This document shows, one piece after another, positions 38,829 to 41,880 of a stretch of DNA of 64,000 bases; within the stretch, counting starts at the first letter, position 1; each line of letters begins with the position of its first letter. Source of the DNA: Blochmannia endosymbiont of Camponotus (Colobopsis) obliquus. Its GTDB lineage: Bacteria; Pseudomonadota; Gammaproteobacteria; Enterobacterales; Enterobacteriaceae. The translations under genes and the position numbers were made by a program. The notes below the pieces were generated by a model, which worked only from the letters and a program-made list of their open reading frames with translations, did no database searches and was not told where the DNA came from. The stretch covers positions 186,001-250,000 of the forward strand of contig NZ_CP010049.1 in NCBI RefSeq assembly GCF_000973545.1, read 5' to 3'.

Positions 38829-39914
38829 ATGCAAGAAAAAACGGATAAAAATATTAATTTTTATAATAATCAAGAAATGATTACTCCAGCAGAATTAAAA
38901 AGCCGATTTCCTTTAAAAGAAAAGGAGAGTCGTTTTGTTTGTGATTCCCAACAGATTATTGCCAATATTATTCATGGTAAAGATTCGAGATTATTGATAG
39001 TGTGCGGCCCTTGTTCCATTCATGATGTTGATTCTACTATAGATTATGCACATCGTTTAAAGGTTCTTTCTGATGAATTAAGTGATAAATTATATATTGT
39101 CATGCGTGTTTATCTTGAAAAACCTCGTACTGTTTTAGGTTGGAAAGGTTTAATTAATGATCCCCATATGGATGGATCTTTTGATATTAAAAGTGGATTA
39201 GAAATTTCCAGATCTTTATTATTGAAATTATTAACAATGGGATTACCATTGGCCAATGAAGCTTTAGATTTAAATACACCACAGTATCTTGGAGAATTAT
39301 TTAGTTGGTCTGCTATTGGCGCTCGTACTACTGAATCTCAAGTTCATCGTGAATTGGCATCTGCTTTGCCTATGTCTATAGGTTTTAAAAATAGTACTAG
39401 TGGAAATTTAATGAGTGCAATTAATGCTATACGAGCAGCATCAATATCTCATTGTTTTATGGGTATTAATCAGAGTGGAAGAATTTGTTTATTAAAAACG
39501 CAGGGGAATTTAAATGGACATGTTATTTTACGTGGAGGTATAAAACCGAATTATTATCCAGAAGATATTGCATATTGTGAAAGTCAATTGTTAAAAGTTG
39601 GGTTACCATTATTTTTAATGGTTGATTGTAGTCATGGAAATTCTAATAAAAACTATCATGACCAAATCAAAGTAGCAAGATCTATTTTAGATCAAATTAA
39701 AGATGGTAATCGTTCTATTGTGGGATTGATGTTAGAAAGTCATATTTATTCTGGTAATCAGGTTTTACAATTACCTTACGTTAAGTTACGTTATGGTGTA
39801 TCAGTTACTGATGCTTGTATTGATTGGATTAGTACTGAAAATTTATTGCGTCAGTTGCATATGGAATTAAATTCTATTCTTTCTAATCGTTTAGTAGGAG
39901 CTATGAATACATGA
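38829..39914 (+). CDS. aroF: DAHP synthase (AroF-like)
   Basis: Condenses PEP and erythrose 4-phosphate, the entry to the shikimate pathway. The protein is 361 residues (E. coli AroF 356). Metal and substrate residues are intact: VCGPCSIHD, EKPRT-GWKGL, GARTTESQ, GFKNS, ILRGG, MVDCSHGNSNK, LMLESH and SVTDACI. Best match is the Tyr-sensitive isozyme, supported by linkage to tyrA. Whether it still responds to tyrosine cannot be read from sequence. Its stop overlaps the tyrA ATG by 4 nt (ATGA). Confidence 0.95.
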   Translation: MQEKTDKNINFYNNQEMITPAELKSRFPLKEKESRFVCDSQQIIANIIHGKDSRLLIVCGPCSIHDVDSTIDYAHRLKVLSDELSDKLYIVMRVYLEKPRTVLGWKGLINDPHMDGSFDIKSGLEISRSLLLKLLTMGLPLANEALDLNTPQYLGELFSWSAIGARTTESQVHRELASALPMSIGFKNSTSGNLMSAINAIRAASISHCFMGINQSGRICLLKTQGNLNGHVILRGGIKPNYYPEDIAYCESQLLKVGLPLFLMVDCSHGNSNKNYHDQIKVARSILDQIKDGNRSIVGLMLESHIYSGNQVLQLPYVKLRYGVSVTDACIDWISTENLLRQLHMELNSILSNRLVGAMNT

Positions 39915-41041
39915 TACAGGAATTAGATGTTTTACGTAATAAAATTGATGAGTTAGATAAGTCTTTGTTGGATTTATTAGCACAACGTTTATTATTAGTG
40001 ACACAGATAGGTGAATTAAAAAGTCGTTATGGTTTATTGATTCATGCTCCAGATCGGGAAGAAGTCATGTTATCTTCTAGACGAAAGGAAGCTATAGAGT
40101 TAGGAATTTCACCTGATTTAATTGAGGATATATTACGTAGAATAATACGTGAATCATATTTTAGTGAAAATGAAAAAGGATTTAGAAATTTATGTCCACA
40201 TGCGTCACGCCCAGTCGTTATAATTAGTAATAATAATAATAAGATTAGTAAATTATTTAATAGAATGTTTATTTTATCAGGATATCAGGTTAAATTTTTA
40301 GAAGGTAATGATTGGTATATAGAAAAAGAAGTTTTAAAATATGCAAGTATAGTATTGATTAATTTATCGATGCGTTTAACTGTAGAAATAGTTAAAGAAT
40401 TAACTTATTTGTCAGATGATTGTATTTTAATTAATGTTTTTTTAGTTAAAGATATATCATTATTAAAGATTATGTTAGATATTCATGACGGTCCAGTTAT
40501 AGGTTTACAACCTATGTTTAATGCAGATATAAAGAACATGGTTAAACAGGTCATTGTTTATCATGAAGGGCGTATGTTTACAAAACATAGTTGGTTGCTA
40601 GATCAAATTAAAGCTTGGGGTGTACAGTTATATCATTATGATTCAGCTGAACATGATAAGAATATATCTTTATCTCAAGAATTTTTATATTTTGTTATTT
40701 TTGTTTTTGGTGCATATTTAAAAGAAAGTAATGTAGATTTGAAAAAAATTTTGTTGTTATCTTCATCTATGTTTCGTTTTCAAATGATAATGATAGGTAG
40801 ATTTTTTGCTCAAGATCCCATTGATTATATAGATATTATTGTAAATTCTAAAAGTTGTTTGTCATTAGCTAAAAGTTATTATCAACAATGCATTAAGATA
40901 TTAACTGTTTTAGAACAAGGTAAAAAACAAGAATTTATTGATTATTTTTATCACATAAGACATTGGTTTAGTAATTATGCTGCTTCTTTTTTTAAAGAAA
41001 GTAGAATGTTATTGAGATATATTGATGATAATCGTAAGTAG
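39911..41041 (+). CDS. tyrA: TyrA: intact chorismate mutase, degenerate prephenate dehydrogenase
   Basis: In E. coli a fused chorismate mutase (residues 1-90) and NAD-dependent prephenate dehydrogenase. Here the mutase half is well kept (LRNKIDELD, LAQRLLLV, Lys37 in GELKSRYG, the DREE segment). The dehydrogenase half is not: the NAD loop GGGG of E. coli is NNNN (107-110, four AAT codons), and catalytic His197 is Gln200 (GLQPMFNAD). Arg of MIGRFFAQDP and the AEHDKN histidine remain. Length is 376 residues with no frameshift. Inference: a chorismate mutase, probably without dehydrogenase activity. Overlaps aroF by 4 nt. Confidence 0.93.
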   Translation: MIQELDVLRNKIDELDKSLLDLLAQRLLLVTQIGELKSRYGLLIHAPDREEVMLSSRRKEAIELGISPDLIEDILRRIIRESYFSENEKGFRNLCPHASRPVVIISNNNNKISKLFNRMFILSGYQVKFLEGNDWYIEKEVLKYASIVLINLSMRLTVEIVKELTYLSDDCILINVFLVKDISLLKIMLDIHDGPVIGLQPMFNADIKNMVKQVIVYHEGRMFTKHSWLLDQIKAWGVQLYHYDSAEHDKNISLSQEFLYFVIFVFGAYLKESNVDLKKILLLSSSMFRFQMIMIGRFFAQDPIDYIDIIVNSKSCLSLAKSYYQQCIKILTVLEQGKKQEFIDYFYHIRHWFSNYAASFFKESRMLLRYIDDNRK

Positions 41042-41130
41042 TGTTCTTTTAGAATTTGTAATATAAAATTTAATTTGTAACAAAACAGTTATTGGTGTTA
41101 TTTTACTATTTTTAGATTAAGGGTGATTAA

Positions 41131-41162
41131 TTAAAAAAATTGTAGATCATTATCAATGATCT
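41131..41162 (-). terminator. Possible terminator between tyrA and pheA
   Basis: AGATCAT (41144-41150) pairs with ATGATCT (41156-41162) around a 5-nt loop. On the minus strand it is followed by ACAATTTTTTT, as an intrinsic terminator for pheA would be. It lies about 115 nt past the pheA stop; it may also slow + strand transcription. Confidence 0.4.
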
Positions 41163-41277
41163 GGTAAAAATCAACAATGTAAATAAAAGATTTTGGTTGA
41201 TATTTGTGTATGTTAATTTTCTTAGTTAATATATTGAATAATTATAATTCAATAATTATATGATTATGTATGTTATG

Positions 41278-41880
41278 CTATGATGTATTGTGTTTGTTGT
41301 GTTTATATCCAATTACAACGAAACGAGTCGTGTTGTATGTGTCATTATTTATATTTAATTTTAATGTTTTTAATCCATAAAGAATACCTCCAAATTTACT
41401 TCCTAAAGCGGCAATTGTAGGTATATTGAGTTTAGCGACTGTCTTTATAGCATCAGATGTGCTTGTACAGTGCACAATGTTTTGTCGAGGAAAACGAGTT
41501 ATAATATTACTACATTGTAAGAGAGGTTGTGGATGACTATATATTTTTTGAATTGTATTAAACTTAATGTTAGTAGTATTGGTTAATAAATAATGTTTAA
41601 TGGGAATAATTATTTCTTCTATTAAAGACGTGTTCGTGTGTTTAAGGAGGTCATAAACTTCATCTATAAATCCTGAAGTAGAATTTTCAATAGGTAGAAT
41701 ACCGTATTCTGCATCTCCCTTTTCTACTACTTGGATAATATCAGCAAATTTTTGACAACTGTTATATTCAATGCCGTTATTAAAATATTGTGCACTATAT
41801 TTTTTAGCGGCTATATAAGAATATGATCCTTTAGGGCCGAGAAATGCTATACGAATTGAATATTTATTATGTTGAAACAT
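41278..41880 (-). CDS. pheA: Prephenate dehydratase, stand-alone domain of PheA
   Basis: Converts prephenate to phenylpyruvate. The 200 residues cover only the dehydratase domain of the 386-residue E. coli PheA: IRIAFLGPKGSYSYIAA, LPIENSTSGFIDEVYDLL, IYSHPQPLLQCS, STSDAIKTVA, AALGS and the catalytic TTRFVVIG near the end. The N-terminal chorismate mutase domain and the C-terminal ACT phenylalanine-sensing domain are absent, and no remnant is visible on either side. ATG at 41880 lies just before the domain. Prephenate would have to come from the mutase half of TyrA next door, and feedback by phenylalanine should be lost. Convergent with tyrA. Confidence 0.93.
   Translation of the reverse strand: MFQHNKYSIRIAFLGPKGSYSYIAAKKYSAQYFNNGIEYNSCQKFADIIQVVEKGDAEYGILPIENSTSGFIDEVYDLLKHTNTSLIEEIIIPIKHYLLTNTTNIKFNTIQKIYSHPQPLLQCSNIITRFPRQNIVHCTSTSDAIKTVAKLNIPTIAALGSKFGGILYGLKTLKLNINNDTYNTTRFVVIGYKHNKHNTS

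Follow-up and report, generated by a model that had tools for sequence, protein, structure and literature searches.

TyrA of a Blochmannia ant symbiont appears to persist as a chorismate mutase that supplies PheA and carries a dead dehydrogenase domain

Does a tyrA gene in a reduced symbiont genome mean that the symbiont makes tyrosine? The question is raised by a stretch of 64,000 nucleotides (the window) from the Blochmannia endosymbiont of Camponotus (Colobopsis) obliquus (B. obliquus; assembly GCF_000973545.1, contig NZ_CP010049.1, positions 186,001 to 250,000), whose genome is a single contig of 773,940 bases. The window carries aroF, tyrA and pheA side by side. A prediction made from the letters alone held that TyrA and PheA have lost complementary domains and may work as one split enzyme. 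The analysis reported here makes it highly probable that this TyrA is a chorismate mutase (CM) with a dead prephenate dehydrogenase (PDH) domain, that it relays prephenate to a PheA consisting of the prephenate dehydratase (PDT) domain, and that no tyrosine is made. The features concerned are as follows.

38829..39914, plus strand: aroF, DAHP synthase, with a 4-base overlap with tyrA; served as a rate control.
39911..41041, plus strand: tyrA, 376 amino acids, intact CM and a C-terminal domain that appears dehydrogenase-dead.
39911..40186, plus strand: AroQ-type CM domain, residues 1-92, from CM_2, TIGR01799 and invariant columns.
40019-40021, plus strand: Lys37 codon of tyrA.
40205..41038, plus strand: former PDH domain, residues 99-376, with no PDH_N match and a long terminal branch.
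40229..40249, plus strand: former NAD loop, GGxGxMG changed to NNNNKIS, from the alignment and the bases read.
40442..40444, plus strand: TTA, which puts Leu where E. coli has Ser176.
40508..40510, plus strand: CAA, Gln at the position of the catalytic His197.
40688..40690, plus strand: TAT, which puts Tyr in place of His257, a residue of tyrosine inhibition in E. coli (PMC2954222).
41278..41880, minus strand: pheA, 200 amino acids, PDT domain only, from a PDT match alone, with no CM and no ACT domain.

TyrA residues are numbered as in E. coli, and papers are cited by accession from excerpts of their text. The mutase half of TyrA is kept, as had been predicted from Lys37. Pfam CM_2 matches residues 8-83 with 72 bits and TIGR01799 (CM_T) scores 112.2 bits (cut-off 95.9). 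Arg9, Arg26, Lys37, Arg49, Glu50, Ser82 and Glu86 are all present, as are 16 of the 16 CM columns that are invariant across 30 other aligned TyrAs (13 congeneric ones, that of E. coli, 15 from further genomes of larger size and that of the 500-kb symbiont G019). The dehydrogenase half is broken, also as predicted. PDH_N finds no match in the protein; PDH_C scores 37.1 bits (cut-off 22), and the C-terminal dimerisation domain is thus still recognised. In the same alignment 32 of 44 invariant PDH columns are kept and the rest are changed (G105N, G106N, G108N, G111S, P151S, D173N, S176L, M249I, P283S, L289M, L295F and L302D), the NAD-binding GxGxxG loop being gone. His197 has become Gln and His257 has become Tyr; the former lies outside the 44 columns since it is also changed in two relatives. 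His197, Arg294 and the serine aligned here with Ser176 are key dehydrogenase residues, and His257 is required for tyrosine inhibition of E. coli TyrA (PMC2954222). The four NAD-loop glycines and Ser176 are present in all 13 genus relatives, and chance is therefore not a sensible alternative. Among four matched solved sequences the best was the H. influenzae dehydrogenase 2pv7; an AlphaFold model of TyrA made without an alignment had a mean predicted local distance difference test score of 42.9 and was unusable.

Compared with the bifunctional TyrA of Enterobacterales (T-protein, NF008400), the B. obliquus protein is alike in its aroF-tyrA gene order, its intact CM and an architecture close to full length (437.1 bits, cut-off 273), but differs in lacking the NAD loop, Ser176, His197, His257 and any PDH_N match. 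The NCBI model thus names this TyrA bifunctional although its dehydrogenase would be dead, and the gene is easily taken for the pathway.

PheA proved to be the dehydratase domain only, as the original prediction had it. PDT scores 190 bits and no other Pfam domain is found; the model of the bifunctional PheA (P-protein, NF007910) gives 235.3 bits against a cut-off of 577. Relative to that enzyme PheA is alike in PDT and differs in having neither CM nor ACT domain. The frame has 200 codons; in the genus-wide comparison of PheA frames it was read as 204 amino acids, compared with 198 in one relative (G003) and 292-321 in the other 12, and in B. obliquus and G003 nothing follows PDT where an ACT domain with the ESRP motif, which we take to be its phenylalanine-binding motif, would lie. 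The Pfam ACT model is itself insensitive, scoring E. coli PheA at 13.8 bits, under its cut-off. Candidate CM or ACT remnants of pheA in the adjoining DNA were weak low-complexity matches, none of them convincing. The 12 longer PheAs carry an ACT-like C-terminal extension in which ESRP is absent in 12/12, which suggests that phenylalanine feedback has been lost across the genus.

The original prediction also held that the TyrA mutase is the sole prephenate supply of PheA and that there is no tyrosine branch, and suggested a search of the genome for another mutase or dehydrogenase. CM_2 has a single match above its cut-off in the genome, in TyrA; the search was for mutases of the CM_2 type and did not extend to the AroH type (PF07736) or to the other shikimate genes. 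A second CM candidate at G000:C1:611865 scored 21.6 bits, below the cut-off, and its frame reads as what we take to be PtsI. The PDH_N profile has no match at E≤10 anywhere in the genome. With one CM and no PDH_N, PheA must draw on the prephenate made by TyrA and the tyrosine branch appears to be closed, so that both claims stand within the scope of these searches. Four aminotransferase-family genes were found, presumably AspC-like, HisC, GlyA and MetB.

We propose that the TyrA mutase would make all of the prephenate in the cell, which would diffuse to PheA, a stand-alone dehydratase with no feedback domain, and be converted to phenylpyruvate and then, probably via an AspC-like aminotransferase, to phenylalanine. 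No 4-hydroxyphenylpyruvate, and hence no tyrosine, would be formed from prephenate. Tyrosine would come from the host, probably by hydroxylation of phenylalanine, a plausible source that is stated for such hosts (PMC9381600). The support for a split enzyme extends to a metabolic relay, with the sole CM in TyrA and the PDT in PheA, and no further. A stable assembly of the two proteins that channels prephenate could be read from the adjacency and metabolic interdependence of tyrA and pheA; the genes are, however, convergent and form no operon, and in the second case described below PheA is encoded on a separate small contig. We consider such a complex very unlikely.

A gene in which one half has decayed may simply be a pseudogene in the making, with the mutase not yet broken and phenylalanine synthesis going as well. 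The dehydrogenase half is clearly relaxed, and the C. obliquus symbiont has the most pseudogenes of six Blochmannia compared (PMC4389277). Rates were compared on a fixed tree, with G009 as the comparison lineage and G017 as the outgroup for lineage-unique residues. Codon models on the Blochmannia branch were saturated at synonymous sites (synonymous divergence about 2-7); they reject a ratio of nonsynonymous to synonymous rates (omega) of 1, but their values were not used, and because of this saturation we relied on amino-acid rates and on a within-clade test in another genus. Terminal branches of B. obliquus and G009 measure 0.184 and 0.169 for CM, 0.404 and 0.373 for AroF, 0.668 and 0.611 for PDT, and 1.081 and 0.304 for PDH (N-terminal part 1.52 and 0.28; C-terminal part 0.84 and 0.29). 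PDH has thus evolved about 3.6-fold faster in B. obliquus, and CM, AroF and PDT are not accelerated. Lineage-unique residues agree (B. obliquus/G009: PDH 70/17, p=8.4e-9; CM 8/9; AroF 34/39; PDT 23/27). Formerly invariant PDH sites are changed in B. obliquus as often as other shared sites (11/31 and 15/41), and sparing of invariant sites is absent by Fisher test in both parts of the domain (p=0.24 for N, 1 for C); such sites are spared in CM (0/32 changed, p=0.0017), AroF (2/127, p=2.4e-11) and PDT (1/44, p=6.6e-6). In the control lineage G003 invariant PDH sites are spared (p=7.8e-7 and 5.2e-5).

Despite this relaxation, the 376 codons of tyrA contain no stop and no frameshift, and relative to the 13 relatives the PDH part has acquired in-frame insertions of two and one residues only. 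In simulations in which the PDH region of G009 was mutated neutrally until 53 residues had been replaced (the excess of 70 over 17; 400 runs per base composition), the mean number of nonsense changes was 6.0 at a GC fraction of 0.20 and 5.3 at 0.29, and runs free of nonsense numbered 0/400 and 1/400, respectively. The open PDH frame thus runs against neutral expectation. With the mutase, AroF and PDT branches not lengthened and their invariant sites spared, a tyrA in general decay is hardly credible, and the parallel case below points the same way. PMC4389277 lists 15 intergenic-region pseudogenes in B. obliquus, tyrA not among them. An assembly or sequencing artefact might be suspected since the species is represented here by a single genome, but 70 lineage-unique PDH replacements with no stop, insertions that are in frame and the same outcome in 18 genomes of another genus leave that explanation a negligible probability.

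Several observations weigh against a mutase-only TyrA or weaken the tests that favour it. Lys178, His245, Asp246, Arg294 (the substrate-binding arginine), Gln298 and Tyr303 are retained in B. obliquus, and the prephenate pocket might persist; Arg286 is retained too. The mutase search had the scope given above. Sparing of invariant sites in the control G009 is weak (p=0.011 for PDH N, 0.061 for PDH C and 0.054 for CM). At face value a two-ratio model puts omega for PDH lower, not higher, in B. obliquus (0.043) than in its relatives (0.102), with a small gain over a single ratio (twice the log-likelihood difference, 2dlnL, 2.4). BLOSUM conservativeness is mixed, the changes in the N part being more conservative than those of a one-step neutral draw and the changes in the C part not.

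When was each half lost? All 14 Blochmannia genomes have one CM_2 match above the cut-off, at tyrA (a second match, below the cut-off, occurs in 5/14, of which that of B. obliquus alone was examined), and the PheAs of eight relatives out of 13, scanned with Pfam, have PDT and no CM. A single CM, in tyrA, in all 14 genomes places the loss of the PheA mutase in the genus ancestor or earlier. The comparison across related symbionts that the original prediction called for found wholesale PDH decay in B. obliquus only, though two others have lost His197; judged from these alignments, the TyrA dehydrogenase was lost later than the PheA mutase, in the B. obliquus lineage. The complementary losses are thus not a single paired event. 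B. obliquus is the first branch of the genus in our tree, among the Blochmannia sampled, and also in the published one (PMC4389277). The order of events may explain why tyrA is still there: in a genus ancestor with no PheA mutase, the TyrA mutase would have become indispensable, and loss of the whole tyrA gene would have been blocked once the dehydrogenase was dispensable.

Milder changes occur elsewhere in the genus. PDH_N passes its cut-off in 12 of the 14, the exceptions being B. obliquus (no match) and G005 (24.7 bits), and the lowest passing score is that of G006 (32.2 bits). The His197 codon, CAA in B. obliquus, is TAT (Tyr) in G005 (tyrA at L019) and CAG (Gln) in G006 (L005), on separate branches. 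G006 also shares His257Tyr with B. obliquus, and G004 (L014) has Arg294Lys. These changes are possible early stages of dehydrogenase loss in other Blochmannia. They point either to a repeated weakening of the tyrosine branch in the genus or to changes of which some are tolerated or erroneous. For the His197 changes of G006 and G005, which come with no wholesale decay, recent loss, reduced activity and sequence error are indistinguishable. At TyrA position 256, all non-Blochmannia rows of the alignment have Arg, 13 of 14 Blochmannia have Cys and B. obliquus has Leu.

A family sample of 119 genomes gave a CM_2 match in 99, and the 25 with a single match were taken further: PDT was found in 16/25 and TyrA in 15/25, in seven of these only over the N-terminal part (G079 was left out of the residue reading). 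Two genomes, G042 and G087, with one CM_2 match each, have an intact-looking TyrA and PheAs of 283 and 357 amino acids in which no CM is recognised. The TyrA of G117 resembles that of the window, with the CM residues kept and GxGxxG, Ser176, His197 and Arg294 lost; its PheA (228 amino acids, PDT only) lies next to a trfA-like gene on a contig of 5,198 bases, apart from the main contig of 462,406 bases. G117 led to a set of 24 genomes of the genus g105 (loci L089-L112).

In g105 the TyrA frame, read to 370 residues at most (E. coli TyrA has 373), runs without a stop from the start of the match over 344 to 370 or more residues in 24/24, and in three genomes the match passes a stop near its end. 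The seven CM residues are as in E. coli in all rows, except for Arg9 in G161, where the main match begins at residue 14. Six of the 24 (G148-G152 and G167, the last with Arg294Lys) retain His197 and the complete set of four GxGxxG glycines. The remaining 18 have Tyr in place of His197, have lost two or more of these glycines, carry Asn, Ile or Lys instead of Arg294 and vary at Gln298. These 18 form one clade with weak support (52), and the sequences imply one or two dehydrogenase losses within g105. PheA was readable in 23 of the 24, as 21 complete frames of 218-251 amino acids and two that are truncated where the stretch ends; a search by tblastn (E≤1) found no CM on these readable stretches, which are mostly parts of plasmids rather than whole ones. 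The gene lies on a second small contig apart from tyrA, a plasmid in two named records, those of the Plateumaris pusilla and Macroplea mutica symbionts, where it has 228 and 229 codons and is annotated as a prephenate dehydratase domain protein. A 4,970-base plasmid stretch of one g105 member is identical to the M. mutica symbiont plasmid, and chromosome size, plasmid size and plasmid gene content are like those of published reed-beetle symbionts (PMC7289800), which fits g105 being reed-beetle-type symbionts. Compared with B. obliquus, g105 is alike in the kept CM, in the PDH lost in 18/24 and in a PheA with no CM, and differs in having PheA on a plasmid. A TyrA with the mutase kept and the dehydrogenase dead, as read from these sequences, has arisen independently in the two genera. 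In G161 (L101, L113) the N-terminal mutase part of tyrA was matched twice within one open frame of 418 amino acids, as if partly duplicated.

The tighter g105 clades, in which synonymous change is unsaturated, allow selection on the apparently dead domain to be estimated. In two PDH-dead clades, of 8 and 4 taxa, omega is 0.15 and 0.13 for the N part and 0.22 and 0.28 for the C part, compared with 0.07 for each part in a PDH-intact clade of 5; CM stays at 0.12-0.13 in the three clades and at 0.12-0.14 over all sets. An omega of 1 is rejected in each of the three clades (2dlnL at least 21.9). A fourth set, mixed and deeper (n=4, with one long branch), gives 0.24 (N) and 0.09 (C), with 2dlnL of 14.4 and 55.9, and the PDH-dead sets overall span 0.13-0.24 (N) and 0.09-0.28 (C), an omega of 1 being rejected (2dlnL 14-67). 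The runs covered 16 of the 24 genomes (11 PDH-dead ones from clades a and b or the mixed set, together with three others); G161, G167, G168, G169, G170 and two others lie outside the tight clades and were omitted where unlisted. These values suggest that catalysis is gone and that constraint on the fold persists, about two- to fourfold weaker than in the active domain. The low CM omega in the dead sets tested, and frames open for at least 344 residues in 18/18 dead g105 TyrAs, are again not what a decaying pseudogene would show.

Hence, the dead PDH domain has probably been retained as a component of the mutase that has no catalytic role, and it would remain translated because folding, dimerisation or activity of the mutase depends on it. 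The separated domains of the E. coli enzyme have low activities (PMC1173090), which fits a need of the mutase for such a scaffold. The constraint might instead reflect a new or residual activity of the C-terminal domain, such as use of an altered cofactor or allosteric sensing of prephenate or tyrosine on behalf of the mutase. Purifying selection on the dead g105 domains would suit that explanation, as would the survival of the substrate-side residues in B. obliquus while those for NAD and hydride transfer are gone. But no pocket is shared across the two genera, given the Arg294 and Gln298 changes in the 18 dead g105 TyrAs, and B. obliquus has Tyr in place of His257, on which tyrosine inhibition depends in E. 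coli (PMC2954222); we regard a retained or new function of this kind as unlikely. The 19 TyrAs with an apparently dead dehydrogenase and intact mutase residues offer a natural experiment on domain dependence.

Buchnera aphidicola keeps its mutase in a bifunctional PheA. There, too, the symbiont has no tyrosine branch, but the whole of tyrA is lost (PMC1173090). Loss of one domain of an enteric aroQ fusion has been described in the same paper, whose Table 6 lists the events 'pheA domain of aroQ-pheA becomes a pseudogene' and 'aroQ-tyrA becomes a pseudogene' (PMC1173090); those are pseudogene events, whereas in B. obliquus the frame is open and the mutase conserved. Westeberhardia, the symbiont of Cardiocondyla ants, likewise has a reduced aromatic pathway shared with its host, but with the opposite choice: most of the tyrosine route is kept, the last step is thought to be host-supplied and no phenylalanine is made (PMC9381600). 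That source concludes that one function alone, tyrosine synthesis, has been kept consistently by every ant symbiont (PMC9381600); its comparison includes four Blochmannia genomes, and 'obliquus' was not found in its main text. In PMC4389277 no mention of tyrosine, phenylalanine, chorismate, tyrA or pheA was found. A 2020 study reported tyrosine synthesis as retained in the symbionts of all four reed-beetle genera and called the plasmid gene a bifunctional CM/PDT (PMC7289800); the g105 sequences disagree with both the published tyrosine pathway and the bifunctional label. No report of a mutase-only symbiont TyrA was found in the titles and abstract starts of open-licence PubMed Central, a scope outside which supplements and most subscription papers lie.

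Tyrosine synthesis is listed for ant and reed-beetle symbionts in published reconstructions, and the B. obliquus and g105 sequences argue against it: the first-branching Blochmannia sampled and 18 of 24 reed-beetle-type genomes appear unable to use the tyrosine branch. The presence of tyrA alone is no proof of tyrosine synthesis in a symbiont. We think it fairly likely that TyrA became a mutase with an obligatory pseudo-dehydrogenase at least twice and that tyrosine provisioning assigned from tyrA is wrong in many symbionts.

Two further observations concern genomes of the wider sample. The 200-kb genome G106 (L076), rated 84% complete, has a TyrA that diverges strongly, retains GxGxxG and His197 and carries Arg294Asn, and the genome has no PDT match; it is possibly a tyrosine-only symbiont. 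In G120 (G120:C1:374826-375651, L088) pheA appears to be divided between a CM frame of 110 amino acids and two PDT frames of 178 and 142 amino acids, and is possibly frameshifted.

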